From an uncultured Roseibium sp. (GTDB lineage: Bacteria > Pseudomonadota > Alphaproteobacteria > Rhizobiales > Stappiaceae), in NCBI RefSeq assembly GCF_947499295.1, contig NZ_CANMNP010000010.1, forward strand, positions 62,001-126,000: a DNA stretch of 64,000 nucleotides, given 5' to 3'. A program made the position numbers and the translations under genes. Shown here in pieces: positions 32,456 to 40,679 of the stretch. The notes beneath the pieces are model-generated. The model ran no database searches and was not told the origin of the DNA. It saw only the letters and a list, made by a program, of their open reading frames with translations. Positions within the stretch are counted from its first letter, which is position 1; every line of letters starts with the position of its first letter.

Positions 32456-32665
32456 TCAATCCTGTGTCTTACGAGCGAAGAACAGGTAAAGCACTGCGGC
32501 AAATACCGAAAGAACGGTACCTGTAAACAATGCTGTATGGAATGGAGAGTCCAGGAGGTGGCGAACATAGGCGCTCAGACCATGCACATCATGGTGAGGG
32601 CCGGGATGCGCCAACGCAGATGATGTCAGCAGGCTGAAAAACAGCGCAGTCAGTAGGTGTCTCAT
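32456..32665 (-). CDS. Small exported His-rich membrane protein in the guanidine operon
   Basis: A 69-residue protein. Residues ~1-19 are a signal peptide ending SALA. The mature N-terminus starts HPGPHHDVHG, reminiscent of the N-terminal metal-binding end of HupE/UreJ nickel transporters but much shorter, and a single hydrophobic helix lies near residues 47-63. It overlaps the upstream His-rich gene by four bases, so it is translationally coupled to it. A role in nickel handling for the hydrolase is inferred from context; copper or cobalt binding is also possible. Confidence 0.72.
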   Translation of the reverse strand: MRHLLTALFFSLLTSSALAHPGPHHDVHGLSAYVRHLLDSPFHTALFTGTVLSVFAAVLYLFFARKTQD

Positions 32666-33132
32666 TCGGCAATGTCCCCTTGTTTTAGGCGGTCGGTCAG
32701 AATTTCGATTAGATCAACATCAGAGCGCTCGGTCAGCGACACGTATGTGAAAACCATCGTCTCCCGTGCCTGCACCATGGAGCCGGGAAAAGGCAGATAA
32801 GCCAGCTCCCGGGATGCGAAGGCAGGAGAGGCGGTTCCGATTTGCCAGTTGCTTTCTATTTTCGCATCAACGAGATGCTGCACCAGCCCGTCGGCACCGT
32901 GTCTGTGAAACGACACTCCTGCAAGGCGGAGATAGCTTGTCTTGTCTTCGGCAGACCGAAATCCGTCAATGAAGCTTGAACTAAGCGCTTGCAATTCATC
33001 AACTTTGTCCGCGTCAGAAATGCCGTGGACATGTGAATGCAGATGATCGTGACCACCGTGATTGTGTCCATGCATGTGAGCATGCACATGCTCGTGGTCA
33101 TGATGATGAGAATGAACGTGATCCGTATTCAT
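32662..33132 (-). CDS. Histidine-rich protein, candidate nickel chaperone for the guanidine hydrolase
   Basis: A 156-residue protein with 17 histidines among the first 37 residues, mainly HxH repeats. The remaining ~120 residues are a soluble alpha/beta-like part with no P-loop GTPase motif and no zinc-finger CxxC, so it is neither HypB/UreG nor HypA. No signal peptide is visible. It begins four bases after the hydrolase stop and overlaps the small membrane-protein gene by four. Known guanidine hydrolases need nickel and accessory proteins, so a nickel-storage or delivery role is likely but unproven. Confidence 0.78.
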   Translation of the reverse strand: MNTDHVHSHHHDHEHVHAHMHGHNHGGHDHLHSHVHGISDADKVDELQALSSSFIDGFRSAEDKTSYLRLAGVSFHRHGADGLVQHLVDAKIESNWQIGTASPAFASRELAYLPFPGSMVQARETMVFTYVSLTERSDVDLIEILTDRLKQGDIAE

Positions 33133-33136
33133 GCTG

Positions 33137-34375
33137 TCACTCCACTTCCGGACCAGCTGGGATGGATACCGGCTTATCTATGATCGACCGGTGAGAACCC
33201 ATTTTGCCATGTGAAACCAGCGTTCCTAAAACATCGACAATCACGCGGGTTGCAAGCAGTGCGGTGATGTCTGAACAGTCGTAGGGAGGTGACACCTCGA
33301 CCACTTCCAGACCGCAGATACCTTCTTTGGCGACGAGCGACACAAGTTCAAGCGCCTCGCGTGGCAGGAAGCCACCCGGTTCCGGCCAGCCCGTGCCAGG
33401 TACGAAGCCGCAGTCGACACTGTCGATGTCGAAGGAGATATAAACCGCATCGGCATCTTTCCAGGCCAGCTCAAGGGCGCGTGCCGCTGTTTCGGCCAGA
33501 CCAAGCTCTTCAACATCACGCATCGTGAAGATGTTGGTATTTCGCTCGCGGGCAACTTCCACCCCTTCGCGCGGGACCTGCCAGCCGCCAATGCCGATCT
33601 GAACAAGATTGACCGCCGGAACATTCACCAAATCCGTCGCATGGAACCACGGTGTTGTGTGCATGCGCTCGTCGAGGTCTTTCTCCTGAATATCTATGTG
33701 CCGATCGAAATGCACGATACCGATACGTTTGGATGTGCATTGCGCAATGCCGCGAACACACGGGAAACCGATAGAATGATCACCGCCGATCATGATCGGC
33801 AAGGCGCCAGAAGACGCCACATGTGAAACGGCCCGCGTTATCTGGTCGAACGTCTTTTCGATATTTGCTGGAATTGTGAAAATGTCTCCGACATCGCAAA
33901 GCGTCATCTGTTCACGAAGGTCGACACCCATTTCATAGTTGTAGGGCGTGTAAAGAGCTGAAATGCGGCGCACACCCTGAGGACCGAAGCGGGTACCCGG
34001 ACGATAAGTCGTTCCCCCATCGAAAGGAATTCCGATTACGGCAGCGTCATACGCGCCAACTTTCGTGACGTCTTCGATATAGGGAGCCTTCAGGAACGTG
34101 TTGATGCCAGCATAGTGGGGCAACTCACCGCGCGCGAATGTCGGGATAGACTTGTCAGTAAGGCTATCAGAACCGGTCAACCCCATTCTGAGAGCCCATG
34201 CCTTTTCTTTTTCCCAGGCAGCGCTTGGCAAAGCGCTTTCCTTTTCAGCGGACTTCCAGCCGCGCAACTGAAGCTTGTCGAAATCCGGATGGTGTTGCCT
34301 TGTCGTGGGGTCTCGCCGGACCGGACCTGCTGCTCTTTGCAGCGTTGCCGGGACAGATCGATCGAACAGGCTCAT
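33137..34375 (-). CDS. gdmH: Guanidine hydrolase-like ureohydrolase (agmatinase family)
   Basis: A 412-residue ureohydrolase with an N-terminal extension of about 100 residues, longer than agmatinase and like the Ni-dependent guanidine hydrolases of cyanobacteria. Metal ligands are intact: H200 in GGDHS, D224/H226/D228 in HFDRHIDIQ, D316 and D318 in FDIDSVD. PGTGWPEPGG follows, with a large aromatic substrate region ERMHTTPWFHA. It should split guanidine to urea and ammonia. It is the fourth gene of a transporter operon led by a guanidine-I riboswitch, overlapping the ATPase gene by four bases. An agmatinase or other guanidino-acid hydrolase is the alternative. Confidence 0.85.
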   Translation of the reverse strand: MSLFDRSVPATLQRAAGPVRRDPTTRQHHPDFDKLQLRGWKSAEKESALPSAAWEKEKAWALRMGLTGSDSLTDKSIPTFARGELPHYAGINTFLKAPYIEDVTKVGAYDAAVIGIPFDGGTTYRPGTRFGPQGVRRISALYTPYNYEMGVDLREQMTLCDVGDIFTIPANIEKTFDQITRAVSHVASSGALPIMIGGDHSIGFPCVRGIAQCTSKRIGIVHFDRHIDIQEKDLDERMHTTPWFHATDLVNVPAVNLVQIGIGGWQVPREGVEVARERNTNIFTMRDVEELGLAETAARALELAWKDADAVYISFDIDSVDCGFVPGTGWPEPGGFLPREALELVSLVAKEGICGLEVVEVSPPYDCSDITALLATRVIVDVLGTLVSHGKMGSHRSIIDKPVSIPAGPEVE

Positions 34376-35217
34376 GGGCGTTCCTCGTACGTTTTGGGTG
34401 TTTGAGTTTTTTGGGGGGTGTTTTGCGCAGGCTGACGGATCGCGCCTGCGATATCCTCCGGCAGTTTTTCCGGTGCGGTTTCCGGGGACGACAATGGCAG
34501 GTCGTAGGTGATGGTCGCACCATAGGCATCCGGAGCCTGAGGATCGTGACGAACCTTGTCGAATACCAGCAGACGGGTGCCAAGTTTGAAGGCTTCATGG
34601 ATGTCGTGTGTGACCATGAAGATGGTCATGCCCAGGTCTTTCCAAAGCCCCAATAGCAACTCGTGCATATCAACGCGGATGCCTGGATCCAGCGCGCCGA
34701 AAGGTTCATCGAGCAACAGGATATTGGGCTTCTTGATCAGCGCCTGTGCAATCGCCAGCCGTTGCTGCATACCTCCTGACAATTGCACAGGATAACGGTC
34801 TGCAGCTGCCTTCAGGCCAATACGATCCAGAATTTCATCAATGTCATCCTTCGCTCGACGGCGGGACTTGCCGAAAAGCCGGCCCGACAATGGAGCACCC
34901 GCGAATTCCGCTGCGAGGATAAGGTTCTCCGCGACGGTCAGATGTGAAAACACTGAATACTTTTGAAAAACGATCCCTCTGTCCGGTGTCGGTTCATCGG
35001 GAAGGGGGGCACCGTCAAGGAGAATTTGTCCGCGTGTGGGCAACTCCTGGGACAACAGCATGCGCAGGAACGTGGATTTGCCACAGCCGGATGCGCCGAC
35101 GATCGTGCAGAACGATCCGTCTTCGACCAGAAGGTCAACACGTTCCAGCACAGGTGTCCCGTCATATGACTTGGTAAGCCCTTGAACTGAAAGTTTGGGA
35201 GTTGCGACAATGCTCAT
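34372..35217 (-). CDS. Guanidine-associated ABC transporter ATP-binding protein
   Basis: A 281-residue ATPase of the nitrate/sulfonate/taurine type. Walker A GASGCGKSTFLRM, signature LSGGMQQRLAIAQAL, Walker B ILLLDEPFGALD and the H-loop MVTHDIHEAF are all intact. The last ~35 residues are Pro/Thr-rich and variable. Old annotations name such proteins urea carboxylase-linked transporters, but the riboswitch and the hydrolase point to guanidine as the ligand. Overlaps the permease by four bases. Confidence 0.9.
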   Translation of the reverse strand: MSIVATPKLSVQGLTKSYDGTPVLERVDLLVEDGSFCTIVGASGCGKSTFLRMLLSQELPTRGQILLDGAPLPDEPTPDRGIVFQKYSVFSHLTVAENLILAAEFAGAPLSGRLFGKSRRRAKDDIDEILDRIGLKAAADRYPVQLSGGMQQRLAIAQALIKKPNILLLDEPFGALDPGIRVDMHELLLGLWKDLGMTIFMVTHDIHEAFKLGTRLLVFDKVRHDPQAPDAYGATITYDLPLSSPETAPEKLPEDIAGAIRQPAQNTPQKTQTPKTYEERP

Positions 35218-36035
35218 AGCGCGTCACTCCCAAGATGGTTCCAGCGGAATGCTCGTCGTGACAGCAAAAGAAGCAGGCGGTCGAGCAGGAAAGCCAGGAG
35301 AGTAATCCACACGACATACGGGAGGATCACATCCATCGCCAAATACCTTCTGACGAGAAAGATCCGGTATCCGAGGCCGGTGGTCGACGCGATCGCCTCA
35401 GCTGAAATCAAAAAAATCCAGGCGGGCACCAGCCCCAATCGCAGCGCAGTGATGAGTTTTGGCAATACCTGAGGCAAAACCAGCCGTGTCACCATCTGCC
35501 ATACGGATGCTCCGAGCGTTTCGGCCTTGATGATCATTTCCCTTGGAATGTCGAGAACAGCTTGCGCGGTCGAGCGCACCATGATCGGTGCCGTACCGAT
35601 AACAATCAGGGCAATCTTCGAAACTTCTCCAAGTCCGAAGGTAATAAAGAGTATGGGCAGGATCGTAATCGGCGGAATTAGCGAAAATGTTGCGATATAG
35701 GGAGCCAGCGCGCTTCGAATGTGCGGTATGAACCCGATTGATATTCCGAGTATGAGTGCCAGGAGCGTTGAAACAGCCATACCGGTGCCCAATCGCCAAA
35801 GGCTGTCAAATGTATCCACCCACAAAAGAAGATCACCGGAACGCCTGTCCGGGACAGCTGCCATGCGCCAGAACGCCTGACCCATGCTGTCCAGGGACGG
35901 CAGCAATTTGTCGGCTGGATTTTCAAGCCGACGATAGTGGCTCGCCACGGCATAGACGAGAATTGTCGCGATGAAGGGCACAAGCCCGAGGGCAAGGGTA
36001 AGGAGCCTAGAAGGCCGCCGGTTGATAATGCGCAT
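35214..36035 (-). CDS. Guanidine-associated ABC transporter permease
   Basis: A 273-residue inner-membrane permease with about six helices and the EAA-type loop ETLGASVWQMVTRLVLPQVLPKLITALRLG-type region (residues ~180-210). Typical of the SsuC/TauC/NrtB family. It starts 71 bases after the binding-protein stop and is overlapped by the ATPase gene. Confidence 0.9.
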   Translation of the reverse strand: MRIINRRPSRLLTLALGLVPFIATILVYAVASHYRRLENPADKLLPSLDSMGQAFWRMAAVPDRRSGDLLLWVDTFDSLWRLGTGMAVSTLLALILGISIGFIPHIRSALAPYIATFSLIPPITILPILFITFGLGEVSKIALIVIGTAPIMVRSTAQAVLDIPREMIIKAETLGASVWQMVTRLVLPQVLPKLITALRLGLVPAWIFLISAEAIASTTGLGYRIFLVRRYLAMDVILPYVVWITLLAFLLDRLLLLLSRRAFRWNHLGSDAL

Positions 36036-36106
36036 GAAACGCCCCGCCTGATCCTGGAAGAAGGACCGGCACCAAAACGCCGGCCCACAAATGCAAAATC
36101 GGGAGT

Positions 36107-37174
36107 TTAGAGAGCGCCTTCAGCGGCCATCGCCATAAAACTCGGATCAAACCGGAGTTTCACGTTGTTCTGGTCGCCATAGACAGAACCATCGGCAAAT
36201 GCGACACCGACGAATTCAGGACTTGGGGCACCTTCGCCGAGTATCCCCTTGTCGAACAGAAACTCTGCGACGAATTTCATCGTGCTCGGGAGTTCTGCCG
36301 ATTTCGTGAATTCAACGGCATCAGCCGGTGTGAAGAACATCTTTGTTGTGGCAAGCTGAGCATCATATCCGGCAAGATCCGTGCCCGAGGCTTCAGCCAT
36401 GGCAGTACGTGCTGCAATGCCTTCGTCGCTGTCGGTCGACATAATCCCCATGAGTTCATACCAGGCGCCGACGAGCGCCTTGCCGAAGTCTGGATTGTCA
36501 GCCAGCGTTTCGGTATTCACCATCATCACATCAATGATCTCTCCTGGAATTCCGGAGCTGTCGAAGACCTTGGTGGCATTCGGCTGAGCTTCGATTTCAG
36601 ACAGAAGAGGGTTCCATGTGACCACAGACGTCACATCAGGTGTTGCATAGGCTGCAATCATATCCGCATCAGATGTGTTGACGACTGTCAGGTCCCTTTC
36701 ACTGAGGCCCACAGTGTCAAGAGCGCGCGCCAGCAGATAGTGGGAAACCGACAGCTCAACCAAGTTGACCGTCTGCCCTTTGATGTCCGCAAGACCAGTC
36801 TTGTCTTTCAAGATGATCCCGTCATTTCCGTTGGAATAGTCGCCGACAATCAGCGCCGTTGTATCAACACCGCCACCTGCAGGAATCGACAAGGCATCCA
36901 TGTTGGTCATGGAACAGCCGTCATACGCGCCTGCCGTATACTGGTTGATCGATTCCACGTAATCGTTGATCTGAACAATTTCGACATTGATGTCATATTT
37001 GTCGGCCCATTTTTTCATGATGCCGCTGTCTTGAAGGTATCCCCAGGGCATCCAACCGACATAGATGGACCAGCAGACTTTAAAGTCGGTTTTCTCCTCC
37101 GCCTGTGCGGAAAAGGATAGTGGCAGCGATAGTGCGGCTGCTAGGAGTGAAGCTCTAGCGAAGGATTTCAACAT
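36107..37174 (-). CDS. Guanidine-associated periplasmic binding protein (formerly urea carboxylase-linked)
   Basis: A 355-residue exported binding protein of the nitrate/taurine-like class. A signal peptide ends around SAQAEE; the mature start KVCWSIYVGWMPWGYLQDSG has aromatic residues likely to line a small cationic ligand pocket. Other features are YTAGAYDGCSMTNMDAL and VTSVVTWNPLLSEI. Family members are often labelled putative urea-binding proteins. AAGGAG stands before ATG 37174. It is the first gene after the guanidine-I riboswitch. Confidence 0.9.
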   Translation of the reverse strand: MLKSFARASLLAAALSLPLSFSAQAEEKTDFKVCWSIYVGWMPWGYLQDSGIMKKWADKYDINVEIVQINDYVESINQYTAGAYDGCSMTNMDALSIPAGGGVDTTALIVGDYSNGNDGIILKDKTGLADIKGQTVNLVELSVSHYLLARALDTVGLSERDLTVVNTSDADMIAAYATPDVTSVVTWNPLLSEIEAQPNATKVFDSSGIPGEIIDVMMVNTETLADNPDFGKALVGAWYELMGIMSTDSDEGIAARTAMAEASGTDLAGYDAQLATTKMFFTPADAVEFTKSAELPSTMKFVAEFLFDKGILGEGAPSPEFVGVAFADGSVYGDQNNVKLRFDPSFMAMAAEGAL

Positions 37175-37231
37175 CTGTGCGCGTCTCCTTAATTTCCCCC
37201 GACAGGGAAGTCCAATCGGGCGACCATCATT

Positions 37232-37276
37232 GAGGTTTGCGCACGTCCGGGAGCAGGTTCGCGCGCGCGAAACCTC
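37232..37276 (-). promoter_or_regulatory. Inverted repeat between riboswitch and binding-protein gene (possible expression platform)
   Basis: GAGGTTT-GCGC and GCGC-GAAACCTC pair almost perfectly across about 20 bases, just downstream of the aptamer in the transcript. No T-run follows, so it is not a classic intrinsic terminator. It could form a competing helix, an anti-RBS fold or a Rho-related structure. Confidence 0.5.
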
Positions 37277-37283
37277 GTGCAGT

Positions 37284-37395
37284 TGTCTCCCGGGCTTTTG
37301 TCCCGCCGTGTCACCGGATTATGTCGGCGGAAGCGCCAAATCATCCGGCTTGCACCTCTCGGTCCTGCGTCTTGTCAGACCGGATCCCTAGGCGC
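37284..37395 (-). ncRNA. Guanidine-I (ykkC) riboswitch
   Basis: Read on the minus strand, the aptamer has the conserved blocks in order: CTAGGGATCCGG, AGGACCGAGAG, then ACACGGCGGGACAAAAGCCC and GGGAGA. These match the ykkC/guanidine-I consensus, with one departure (CTAGGGA where CTAGGGT is common). It stands in the 5' leader of the binding-protein/permease/ATPase/hydrolase operon, the standard genetic place for this riboswitch. On guanidine binding it should raise expression. Confidence 0.93.
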
Positions 37396-37414
37396 GCTGC
37401 ACTGGATAGGTATT

Positions 37415-37430
37415 AGCAAGGTTGGTGCCA
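37415..37430 (-). promoter_or_regulatory. Sigma-54-type promoter of the guanidine operon
   Basis: Minus strand TGGCACCAACCTTGCT matches the -24/-12 consensus TGGCAC-N5-TTGCW with GG-N10-GC spacing exactly. Expected start of transcription is about 10-15 bases before the riboswitch begins. This suggests NtrC-type nitrogen control on top of riboswitch control. An AT-rich stretch (37445-37495) lies upstream, as is common between an activator site and a sigma-54 promoter. Confidence 0.72.
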
Positions 37431-37954: not shown

Positions 37955-38563
37955 TCATTCGGCCGCATTTTCGAGCTTGTCTTCATCGGTCTGTTGTTTT
38001 TTCTTGCCGCCGAACAGCCCCCCAAGCCATCCCTTTTTCTCTTCACCCGCAGATGGGTCTTGCGAAGCGTCTCCTAGAGTTTGATCTACCTCGTTAGAGG
38101 AAGCAGCCTCTGTTTCGGGGCTCGGAGCCACTTGCTGTGCAAAGGCAGCAAAGAACTCTCCAGCAAGTCTCTTTGACGTTGAATCGATCAGCCTGGCACC
38201 GAGTTGGGCGAGCTTGCCACCCACCTTCGCATCAACGTCGTAGTGAAGGATCGTTGCATCCGGCCCGTCTTCTTCCAATCGAACAGTCGCACCGCCGCGC
38301 GCAAAACCTGCAACACCGCCAGATCCTTCTCCTTCGATTTTGTAGCCGTTTGGCGGGTCGAGGTCGTTCAGAGTGACTTTTCCCCCAAACGTTGCCTTGA
38401 CCGGCCCAACCTTGAGCTTGACCTTCGCTTCCAGCTCCGTGTCAGAGTGTTTGATGAGTTCTTCACAGCCTGGGATCGAAGCTTTGAGAACGTCCGCGTC
38501 GTTGAGTGCTTCCCAGACTTTTTCACGCGAAGCTTCAATCCGCTGGCTATCTGTCATTTGCAT
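37955..38563 (-). CDS. coxG: CoxG, SRPBCC-family CO dehydrogenase accessory protein
   Basis: A 202-residue protein. Residues ~1-145 are the SRPBCC/CoxG domain with REKVWEALNDADVLKASIPGCEEL and KVGPVKATFGGKVTL, followed by VGGKLAQLGARLIDSTSKRLAGEFF. CoxG has been linked to membrane recruitment of CO dehydrogenase and to quinone binding. The C-terminal ~55 residues are acidic and low-complexity with a short GWLGGLFGG segment but no full membrane helix. GGAGA precedes ATG 38563. Confidence 0.92.
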   Translation of the reverse strand: MQMTDSQRIEASREKVWEALNDADVLKASIPGCEELIKHSDTELEAKVKLKVGPVKATFGGKVTLNDLDPPNGYKIEGEGSGGVAGFARGGATVRLEEDGPDATILHYDVDAKVGGKLAQLGARLIDSTSKRLAGEFFAAFAQQVAPSPETEAASSNEVDQTLGDASQDPSAGEEKKGWLGGLFGGKKKQQTDEDKLENAAE

Positions 38564-38585
38564 GAATTCGTCTCCATTCCTGGTC

Positions 38586-39458
38586 TTAAACGTGTTGTAT
38601 TCGGGACAGCCGTTGGTTCTTGCGACGGACCATCAAAAGTTCAGCGAGGATCGAAAGGGCGATCTCTTCAGGAGTGATTGCACCGAGATCCAGTCCTGCC
38701 GGGCCCTTGATGCGCTCCAGAGCGTCGAAACTGACGCCCTGATCCTTCAGCTTTGATTTCAGGGCTTCGATTTTCCGTCGGCTTCCAACAAAACCCACAT
38801 GCCGTGCTTTTGTTTTGACAGCAGCTTCCAGTGCCGCCAGGTCGCCTCGACCTTGTGTGGAGATGACGATATATGTGTCTGCACTGTTTGAAGTGATGAT
38901 ATTGAAACCGTTGTTCCTGCGCATTTCAGCAGGAAAACCATCTAAATCTTCAAGAGGCCCGCAAATGGTGACATCAAACCCTATTGTGGGCCCTTGATTT
39001 GCAAGAGCCAGAGCAACTGGACTGGCTCCGAAGACGGCAAGTTGCGGGCGAGGCAAAATTGGCTCGATAAATATGTCCATGGTGCCCTGGCTGGGGCACA
39101 TGTTTTTGGCAAACTGTACACCTTCGCGTTCTTCGCCAGGCTCAACACCGAGTTCAGACAAGAGATCTGCCGGCTGAATGGATATCAGCCGGGCTTCACC
39201 ATCATCAAATGCCGTCTTTGCTGCCTTGATCACTGCCGATTTTGCACAACCGCCACCGATCCATCCGCCGACAATCTCACCCTCGCTGGAAATGACCGCC
39301 TTGGCGCCTGCCTTTGCAGCCGTGACTGAGATTGTTCGGACCACAGTTGCCAGCACGAAGGGTTCCTTGCTGGATTGCATCTGGTGGATCAAATCCACCA
39401 GATCACCCGTCAAATCTTGTCCGGCTCTTGAACCTGAAATTGTGCCTGTATGCTTCAT
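38586..39458 (-). CDS. CoxF/CoxI-type XdhC-family maturation protein
   Basis: About 290 residues from ATG 39458, which has GGGGGA before it; ATG 39473 is an alternative. XdhC fold: FVLATVVRTISVTAAKAGAKAVI, GGWIGGGCAKSAV with the conserved Cys, then a Rossmann part with AVFGASPVALALANQGP and VGFVGSRRKIEALK. In CO dehydrogenase clusters this protein takes part in Mo/Cu active-site assembly. CoxI and CoxF are both XdhC-like, and only one copy is here. Confidence 0.88.
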   Translation of the reverse strand: MKHTGTISGSRAGQDLTGDLVDLIHQMQSSKEPFVLATVVRTISVTAAKAGAKAVISSEGEIVGGWIGGGCAKSAVIKAAKTAFDDGEARLISIQPADLLSELGVEPGEEREGVQFAKNMCPSQGTMDIFIEPILPRPQLAVFGASPVALALANQGPTIGFDVTICGPLEDLDGFPAEMRRNNGFNIITSNSADTYIVISTQGRGDLAALEAAVKTKARHVGFVGSRRKIEALKSKLKDQGVSFDALERIKGPAGLDLGAITPEEIALSILAELLMVRRKNQRLSRIQHV

Positions 39459-39476
39459 TGGTGCATCCCCCATGGA

Positions 39477-40676
39477 TCAAAGCCCGGCCAGGTAAGGTTC
39501 AAGCGCTGCAAGACTTTCAAGATTATGCGCAGGCGCAAAGAGATCGACATGCGGCAATGCTGCCTGCATACCGCCCGCTGAGGGCTCATAGCCCTCCCAA
39601 CCGATAAGCGGGTTGAGCCAGACGATCCGTCGACAACGGCGTCTGAGACGCGCCATTTCTTCTCCCAGAACATCGGGAGCGCCCGTGTCGTATCCATCCG
39701 ACAAGATCATCACGCAAGTTCGCGAATGAATAACCCGCGCAGCGTGCCAACGATTGAAGTCAGCCAATGCTTCACCGATTTTGGTACCACCGCCCACGCC
39801 TTGCGCCATCAGCCCCAGGCGATCCAACGCCCGACCGGCATCTCGCTCTGAAAGCGCAGACGAGACATGGACGAGGCGAGTGTGAAACAGGAATGCTTCG
39901 GCTTCGCGAAAATTGTCCAGGATACCGTGCACGAAACGGGTGAAGACGCCTGTATAGTTGTTCATGGATCCGGACGCATCCAACAGGACCACAAGCCTGA
40001 GCTGCTGCTGGCGCGGTCCTTTTCGGATCAGTTCGAGAGGCGTACCGCCATGAGCGATGGAATGGCGGATCGTCCGGCGCAAATCCAGGCGACGCGCCTT
40101 TCGTTTCTGACGGTCTCTCCGCGTGAGCCGCACACGCATGGACCGCGACAGTCTTTCCGCAAGTTCATGAGCCTGTTTCAAGGCTTCGGGATCTTCTATC
40201 TTCCTGAAGTCTATTTGCCCGAGATTTTCAGCGACGCTTGCACCTTCTCTCCGGCCAGAAGGCGTTTCACTGGTTTCTTCATCTTCCTCGCCGGGTTGAC
40301 GTTCGACATCTCCAGCGATTGTGTCCTGCCGACAGCCTTCCACATCAACCATCTCTCGGATGGTTTTCATACCTTTGCGCGGGCTGGAGCCACTGATTTT
40401 CACACCGGATTTCACGCCTCTGCCAACCCAGTATGCGTCGAACAGTTCGTCGAACTTTTTCCAATCCGAAAGACGTCCGCAAAAAAGTGTGCGGAACGAT
40501 GATTTCAACCTGTCTTGCCGGTGCACGAAAGGTGACTGAAGAAGACGCAATGCATCACTTGTCTCGGCCAATCCCACCTTGAAGCCGCTGTCGCGCAATG
40601 ACCGGACAAACCCCGCAAGCCGTGCACGCAAAACAGCTCCAACGTCTTCACGTGTTTCAAGGCGCAGAGCGTTCAT
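39477..40676 (-). CDS. coxE: CoxE, VWA-domain CO dehydrogenase maturation protein
   Basis: About 399 residues. The C-terminal half is a von Willebrand A domain with the MIDAS start LVVLLDASGSMNNYTG, plus TKIGEALADFN and ILSDGYDTG. The N-terminal part is basic and holds RRTIRHSIAHGGTPLEL. CoxE works with the AAA ATPase CoxD in placing copper/sulfur at the active site. GTG 40679 is an alternative start. It follows coxD with no gap. Confidence 0.93.
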   Translation of the reverse strand: MNALRLETREDVGAVLRARLAGFVRSLRDSGFKVGLAETSDALRLLQSPFVHRQDRLKSSFRTLFCGRLSDWKKFDELFDAYWVGRGVKSGVKISGSSPRKGMKTIREMVDVEGCRQDTIAGDVERQPGEEDEETSETPSGRREGASVAENLGQIDFRKIEDPEALKQAHELAERLSRSMRVRLTRRDRQKRKARRLDLRRTIRHSIAHGGTPLELIRKGPRQQQLRLVVLLDASGSMNNYTGVFTRFVHGILDNFREAEAFLFHTRLVHVSSALSERDAGRALDRLGLMAQGVGGGTKIGEALADFNRWHAARVIHSRTCVMILSDGYDTGAPDVLGEEMARLRRRCRRIVWLNPLIGWEGYEPSAGGMQAALPHVDLFAPAHNLESLAALEPYLAGL

Positions 40677-40679
40677 CAC

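Follow-up and report, generated by a model that had tools for sequence, protein, structure and literature searches.

How do guanidine hydrolases acquire metal when the familiar helper proteins are absent? The question is raised by a 64,000-nucleotide stretch of DNA from an uncultured Roseibium sp. (contig NZ_CANMNP010000010.1, positions 62,001 to 126,000 of the forward strand), which is called the window here. Its minus strand holds a whole guanidine operon: riboswitch, binding protein, permease, ATPase, the hydrolase gene gdmH, a gene for a 156-residue His-rich protein and a 69-residue open reading frame (ORF). As operons of this kind go, it is unremarkable except for its accessory protein, for which the label HisP was coined in this analysis. 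Among marine and soil alphaproteobacteria, one lineage of guanidinases has HisP as a new, near-obligate partner. HisP is probably the dedicated nickel-delivery protein of GdmH, standing in for HypA/HypB and supplied by the permease HupE or by a reduced form of it (mini-HupE). This reading is based on strict linkage to gdmH, the single clade formed by the HisP-bearing hydrolases, the many genomes in which HypA was undetected, and HupE or mini-HupE as the next gene.

HisP and its guanidine hydrolase lineage

The order of genes was established at 118 loci: a search of the window's order supplied 38, and a GdmH search the 80 named ones. These represent 112 distinct HisP proteins, as six pairs were one locus found twice. 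HisP was the next same-strand gene after gdmH in 112/112 distinct loci (118/118 read, 80/80 named), starting −13 to +454 bases from the gdmH end by the start rule used. The neighbour check proposed in a preliminary description of the locus therefore came out in favour of the link: the His-rich protein does not occur mainly away from gdmH, and it is tied to one gdmH lineage.

The named loci are the closest GdmH matches only (at least 74% identity), so independent genome samples matter. In the order sample (397 genomes), a GdmH match at E ≤ 1e-80 was obtained in 45 genomes, 40 of them close (E 1e-158 or better). HisP was present in 40/40 of the close group (38 by single sequence; G352 and G358 by profile), and was not found within the stretches read of the 5 genomes with a distant GdmH (52–57% identical). 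The phylum sample (398 genomes) gave GdmH at E ≤ 1e-100 in 7 genomes, all of the window's class, with HisP in 7/7. In the class sample (289 genomes) there were 12 HisP matches, comprising the window's own, 6 beside GdmH, 4 weak or His-run matches and 1 remnant. Eleven plasmid records carried GdmH (E ≤ 1e-80); the 7 alphaproteobacterial ones were exactly the 7 with HisP, on the same strand as gdmH and at most a few hundred bases off (7/7), and no HisP was found in the 4 actinobacterial records.

The single-sequence HisP search gave 43 matches in the 397 order genomes. The window's own and the 37 others that were read adjoin gdmH, and a chance match of His runs was therefore rejected as an explanation of HisP. 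The other 5 (G012, G069, G136, G138, G186) aligned chiefly through the His tail, with E no better than 6e-5, in genomes with no GdmH at E 1e-80. No intact HisP away from gdmH was found among the loci read, these five weak matches lying outside them. Four class matches (G403, G912, G942, G999) had no GdmH in the ~3 kb fetched around each; a search with the HisP profile left three of them without a match at E 0.01, and for G912 (locus L189) it gave a biased 12-bit match (E 0.0025). These four were treated as His-run matches. A tblastn match to HisP remains in locus L192 (25% identity over 94 residues). The only GdmH-less genome where the search gave a clear HisP piece was G897 (locus L238, 7103–7360), with a remnant of ~86 residues from which the N-terminal part is gone. 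This may suggest that loss of GdmH is followed by decay of HisP.

Of 50 GdmH proteins placed in a tree, the 39 whose loci carry HisP formed a single clade (support 100/99), adjoining the two guanidinases of the PDB, from Synechocystis and Nitrospira (support 93/88). A long-branch warning applies to rows outside the HisP clade, where 9/9 relatives with loci read had no HisP. One gdmH-HisP locus (L094) lies on a contig of an Anaerolineae metagenome-assembled genome, with GdmH 83% identical to that of the window, and may reflect either inter-phylum transfer or an error of binning.

The hydrolase itself was compared with solved relatives by PDB sequence search. The best matches were Synechocystis GdmH (7ESR/7OI1; 65.4% identity over 350 residues, 545 bits) and the Nitrospira guanidinase (9FEK; 61.1% over 357 residues, 530 bits), the next-best solved relative scoring 177 bits. 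A full set of metal ligands had been claimed for the enzyme, and this was borne out. H200, D224, H226, D228, D316 and D318, the six di-metal ligand positions according to the ureohydrolase family motifs, were identical in 133/133 aligned sequences (130 loci, six counted twice and the window's own included, plus the window copy and two PDB chains). W330 of the window protein appears from the alignment to be equivalent to the conserved guanidinase Trp (Trp305/Trp313 in the two structures as described in PMC11410670), and Trp was kept at this position in 127/133 sequences, both PDB chains included. Roseibium GdmH is expected to be a di-metal guanidine hydrolase with a need for nickel.

The six sequences with T or S at the W330 position (loci L233–L237 and L170) were all without HisP. 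L233–L237 encode distant GdmH-like hydrolases of the window's order, 52–57% identical, with no Guanidine-I match. Given the T/S residue and the missing riboswitch match they may act on another substrate, possibly as nickel ureohydrolases, and they were set aside as an unclean comparison for GdmH without HisP. HupE adjoins the GdmH-like gene in L233 and L234, and a 62-residue His-rich exported protein adjoins it in L235.

Sequence and predicted structure of HisP and the protein that follows it

HisP was divided into a tail and a core. The tail held a median of 17 His (range 4–31, in the 107/112 proteins that could be divided), and the core a median of 2. The motif GHNH was present in 71/112 distinct proteins and HNH in 81/112. 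In the AlphaFold2 model, residues 1–39 were predicted to be disordered (predicted local distance difference test, pLDDT, about 57–65), and the core, with pLDDT mostly >90, comprised a helix (40–60), a second helix (64–70), strands and a final helix (141–151). The model of a rhizobial-type member (L148, Methylopila) showed the same order of elements at a mean pLDDT of 78.7. Across 74 HisP sequences D63, P103 and P116 were invariant, and L68, R69, Y112, P114 and R123 near-invariant. The sequences fell into two types: HLHSH marks the Roseibium/Rhodobacter type, and QWQTPH the rhizobial one. Between the window and Labrenzia sp. THAF82 (L069), differences by codon position were 7/5/48 for HisP and 12/7/28 for the 69-residue ORF, which on sequence grounds behaves as a real gene.

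HisP reached the cut-off of no Pfam or NCBIfam family, and at E < 0.001 it had no hit in Pfam, in NCBIfam or among PDB sequences; the PDB search returned one chance row (E 7.7). HypA, CobW/HypB GTPase and UreE domains were not among the 8 Pfam families matched by any of the 74 members at E ≤ 1. The best matches among these members were ZrgA zinc uptake in Pfam (E 0.0047, 4/74) and, in NCBIfam, a nickel/cobalt efflux transporter (E 0.0025, 4/74) and DmeF (E 0.0044, 1/74), all taken as shared His runs and rejected as relatives. In structure searches, Foldseek gave a best E of 0.074 (COMMD-like; 0.13 for a second member), and VIA, run with the first model only, a best Z of 3.3 over 69 residues. 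Known nickel chaperones and the UreE fold were absent from the Foldseek and VIA rows listed, and the fold matches of the models are too weak to indicate either a known or a new fold. Among the open-licence papers listed by the literature searches, none was found that describes HisP or the 69-residue protein; a description may exist elsewhere.

The 69-residue protein has a signal-peptide-like start ending in AxA, a predicted mature end at His-20 and a single hydrophobic helix. Ala-His at the predicted cleavage site was the only feature common to the 36/36 aligned members, which had been picked for His content. In an unfiltered list of 44 ORFs with hydrophobic starts next to HisP (two loci counted twice), Ala-His was present in 40; the 4 without it were three out-of-frame readings and L040. 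A protein of 49–115 residues with a signal-peptide-like start and Ala-His followed HisP in 46/118 loci (44/112 distinct). This count depends on the rule, and was 39/118 with a first rule requiring His and 46/118 with the rule requiring Ala-His. The small protein is thus optional, and the two proteins are not the fixed pair that had been proposed.

Its likeness to HupE, also proposed, was upheld by gene order. Full-length HupE was encoded in 20/118 loci, 19 of them directly after HisP at 4–163 bases (18/112 distinct) and one (L139) upstream. Rhizobial relatives have the complete permease in the slot after HisP. HupE or mini-HupE occupied this position in 62/112 distinct loci, and both together in none. 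Profile alignment (hhalign) of the 69-residue family with the HupE N-terminus gave a probability of 86.8 over 43 columns; as these columns include the signal peptide, which inflates the probability, homology of the family to HupE is rated as likely only. Ala-His after a signal-peptide-like start was also present in the 6/6 HupE sequences aligned. The 69-residue protein, short against the full-length HupE/UreJ domain, had no PF04955 match at E ≤ 1, and 3/36 small-protein members matched that family (best E 0.006). HupE/UreJ permeases have several helices.

A weak relation to DUF6732 (PF20506) was noted. The window protein scored below the gathering score (13.4 vs 27 bits), and 13/36 members gave weak profile matches (best E 0.0022). 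A tie to urease through this family was rejected, as no urease genes were found beside DUF6732 loci: six urease proteins encoded in the window's genome gave no tblastn match within 1.5 kb at 30/30 loci, nor in 8 larger stretches, in a search run without a positive control. In Rhodobacterales (L224, 5610–5828, and other loci among L193–L230) DUF6732 proteins have a signal-peptide-like start, HPGH...GHDHW and a single hydrophobic helix. In 3/8 loci the gene stands just before what we take, by eye from ORF starts, to be a cobaltochelatase gene (CbiX-type) among cobalamin-type genes. DUF6732 is possibly a cobalt counterpart of mini-HupE.

Nickel supply and the probable role of HisP

HypA was searched at E 0.001 in 77 gdmH-HisP genomes (37 order genomes and 40 of the 80 named genomes) and in the window's own; some genomes are incomplete. 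HypB was searched as CobW-type matches in the window's genome alone; 'HypA-less' refers to HypA only. HypA was undetected in 54/77 genomes: 28/37 from the order (26/33 of high quality) and 26/40 named. UreG was present in 53/54 of the HypA-less genomes, and the urease route for nickel is thus probably present there. From these two counts, it is hardly likely that HypA/HypB load the enzyme throughout the HisP lineage, and urease proteins may serve instead. The exception, G031, has GdmH and HisP with no HypA or UreG match, and its GdmH frame is 320 residues long.

In the mechanism that we infer, from guanidine specificity and nickel dependence here to nickel binding, docking and transfer by HisP and the part of mini-HupE, guanidine would bind the riboswitch and so switch on its own import, by the binding protein, permease and ATPase, and its hydrolysis by GdmH into urea and ammonia. 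The disordered His tail of HisP would collect Ni2+ in the cytosol, and the folded core would dock on apo-GdmH and give up the metal to it, with no GTPase in HisP itself. The 69-residue protein may be a cut-down HupE that is exported and spans the membrane with one helix; the His cluster at its mature N-terminus would capture Ni2+ on the outer side of the inner membrane and help to supply metal. HisP would work like a metallochaperone, though sequence tests placed it in none of the known chaperone families. A bolder version is put forward tentatively, at somewhat less than even chance: HisP would found a new class, a single polypeptide of possibly unseen fold, with one client and no GTPase, that replaced HypA/HypB once in an alphaproteobacterial guanidinase ancestor, with mini-HupE, translationally coupled to it, as a nickel receptor of one helix that would feed it.

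Several observations weigh against nickel delivery by HisP. The preliminary description had the helpers replaced in this genome, and that part fails, as hypA lies beside a HypB-like gene on another contig; replacement is plausible just at the level of the lineage, given the 54/77 genomes with HypA undetected. UreG offers a possible second source of metal in almost all of the HypA-less genomes. Only 6–9 His in total are held by 9/112 distinct HisP proteins, 49/112 distinct loci show neither HupE nor mini-HupE by the rules used, and no fold link from HisP to a known nickel protein was obtained with Foldseek or VIA. The need for chaperones is also uneven across this enzyme family in the cited portions of three reports: recombinant activation of metformin hydrolase depended on HypA/HypB (PMC11399263); HypA/HypB co-expression had no significant effect on activity in E. 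coli extracts, and a knockout strain was unable to grow on metformin (PMC11271267); and the Nitrospira guanidinase was active without chaperones, at partial nickel occupancy (PMC11410670). As these published requirements differ, a loader may matter most at low nickel. By eye, the ORFs around hypA/hypB in the window's genome look like other hydrogenase-maturation genes.

Three other roles were weighed against nickel delivery. HisP could be a structural or regulatory partner, as a small subunit or a modulator of activity, with nickel coming from UreE/UreG or HypA/HypB and the His tail as a mere metal buffer. Strict linkage suits any obligate partner, the core is kept even where few His remain, and UreG is at hand in 53/54 HypA-less genomes. 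G031, however, pairs GdmH and HisP with no match to HypA or UreG (though with the 320-residue frame), the gene after HisP encodes a nickel permease or mini-HupE at 62/112 distinct loci, and the Nitrospira guanidinase formed its homohexamer without such a subunit, as described in PMC11410670. This role is considered unlikely.

A nickel store or detoxifier, which would buffer what HupE imports and pass none of it directly to GdmH, is improbable. Hpn and the His tail of HypB are comparable cases, and the His-rich tail and co-location with HupE would fit. A general store would be expected alone or with other nickel enzymes, whereas the HisP loci read gave no intact copy away from gdmH, and the conserved folded core and the members with few His point to a specific task. 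A metal other than nickel, such as manganese or cobalt, was also considered, since some ureohydrolases use other metals, and DUF6732, the weak relative of the 69-residue protein, stood among apparent cobalamin genes in the three loci read by eye. This is very improbable: Synechocystis GdmH, the closest characterised enzyme, is nickel-dependent and is activated by two nickel proteins (PMC12186494, PMC11271267, in the portions cited), and HupE is called a nickel uptake transporter in PMC11399263.

Delivery of nickel by HisP may explain how such enzymes get metal where the usual helpers are missing. For comammox Nitrospira, the nickel supply of a guanidinase without HypA/HypB was called unclear in the cited part of PMC11410670; HisP is a defined, near-obligate candidate for this function, in a different lineage, and a family missing from the libraries searched (Pfam, NCBIfam). 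If the reading is true, the few nickel insertion systems known gain a GTPase-free route, and HisP becomes a practical co-expression partner for producing active guanidinases.

Operon layout and comparison with known systems

Coordinates of the operon features in the window, with the evidence for each
Feature	Position	Strand	Evidence
Guanidine-I (ykkC) riboswitch aptamer, operon leader	37285..37402	-	Rfam RF00442, 68.3 bits vs gathering 63, full length 1-107
ATP-binding cassette (ABC) transporter substrate-binding protein (SBP)	36107..37174	-	TIGR03427, 560 bits vs cut-off 333.9
ABC transporter permease	35214..36035	-	PF00528 (BPD_transp_1), 72 bits
ABC transporter ATPase	34372..35217	-	PF00005 (ABC_tran), 115 bits
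gdmH, 412-residue guanidine hydrolase, ureohydrolase (arginase) family	33137..34375	-	Arginase, 259 bits
HisP, His-rich accessory protein of 156 residues, proposed to deliver nickel to GdmH	32662..33132	-	Next same-strand gene after gdmH
HisP residues 1-39, predicted disordered His-rich tail with conserved GHN(H) motif	33016..33132	-	AlphaFold2 pLDDT
HisP residues 40-156, predicted folded core	32662..33015	-	AlphaFold2 pLDDT
69-residue mini-HupE-like protein	32456..32665	-	Signal-peptide-like start, profile match to HupE N-terminus

The guanidine uptake and hydrolysis operon behind a guanidine-I riboswitch, as first described, was confirmed by RF00442, the ORFs and the family matches. Overlapping starts had been reported for the two small proteins, and this stood in part. 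HisP and the 69-residue gene overlap by 4 bases, as do permease/ATPase and ATPase/hydrolase by their coordinates; HisP starts 4 bases past the gdmH stop, with no overlap there. Relatives of the SBP were present in 78/80 named loci. TIGR03427 is named 'putative urea ABC transporter substrate-binding protein', and despite this name the substrate is very probably guanidine, given the guanidine riboswitch in front and the guanidinase alongside. In other genomes, likewise, the 'urea' label may point to the wrong substrate. Guanidine-I reached the gathering score in 7/9 scanned HisP loci, the exceptions being L091 and L094 (the L094 contig begins within the operon), and in 1/9 scanned loci without HisP (L167). 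Upstream (37955–40679), a CoxG-family protein (PF06240) and, by eye, XdhC-like and VWA-domain-like proteins are encoded, as in clusters of the carbon monoxide dehydrogenase type.

UreE, HypB and SlyD each combine a folded core with a disordered His-rich tail. HisP resembles them in this respect, as far as its AlphaFold2 model goes, but differs in having no sequence match to them at E < 0.001 and no clear fold match. The 69-residue protein shares with HupE/UreJ (PF04955) a signal-peptide-like start ending in Ala followed by a His-containing N-terminus, and is far shorter than those permeases (69 vs 193–197 residues). With DUF6732 it shares a small size, predicted export, His content and a single helix.

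At the level of the operon, Synechocystis (sll1077 with GhaA/GhaB), as described in PMC12186494, PMC8390497 and PMC11271267, likewise keeps a Guanidine-I riboswitch, an ABC importer, GdmH and accessory genes together. Its accessory genes are hypA and hypB (PMC8390497), whereas Roseibium has HisP, with no Pfam match to HypA, CobW/HypB or UreE. The metformin hydrolase operon described in PMC11399263 comprises hypA, hypB, two hydrolase genes and hupE, and is similar in that a nickel-dependent ureohydrolase, nickel chaperones and HupE are clustered. In the operons studied here HisP stands in place of hypA/hypB, and HupE is complete in 18/112 and reduced in 44/112 distinct loci.

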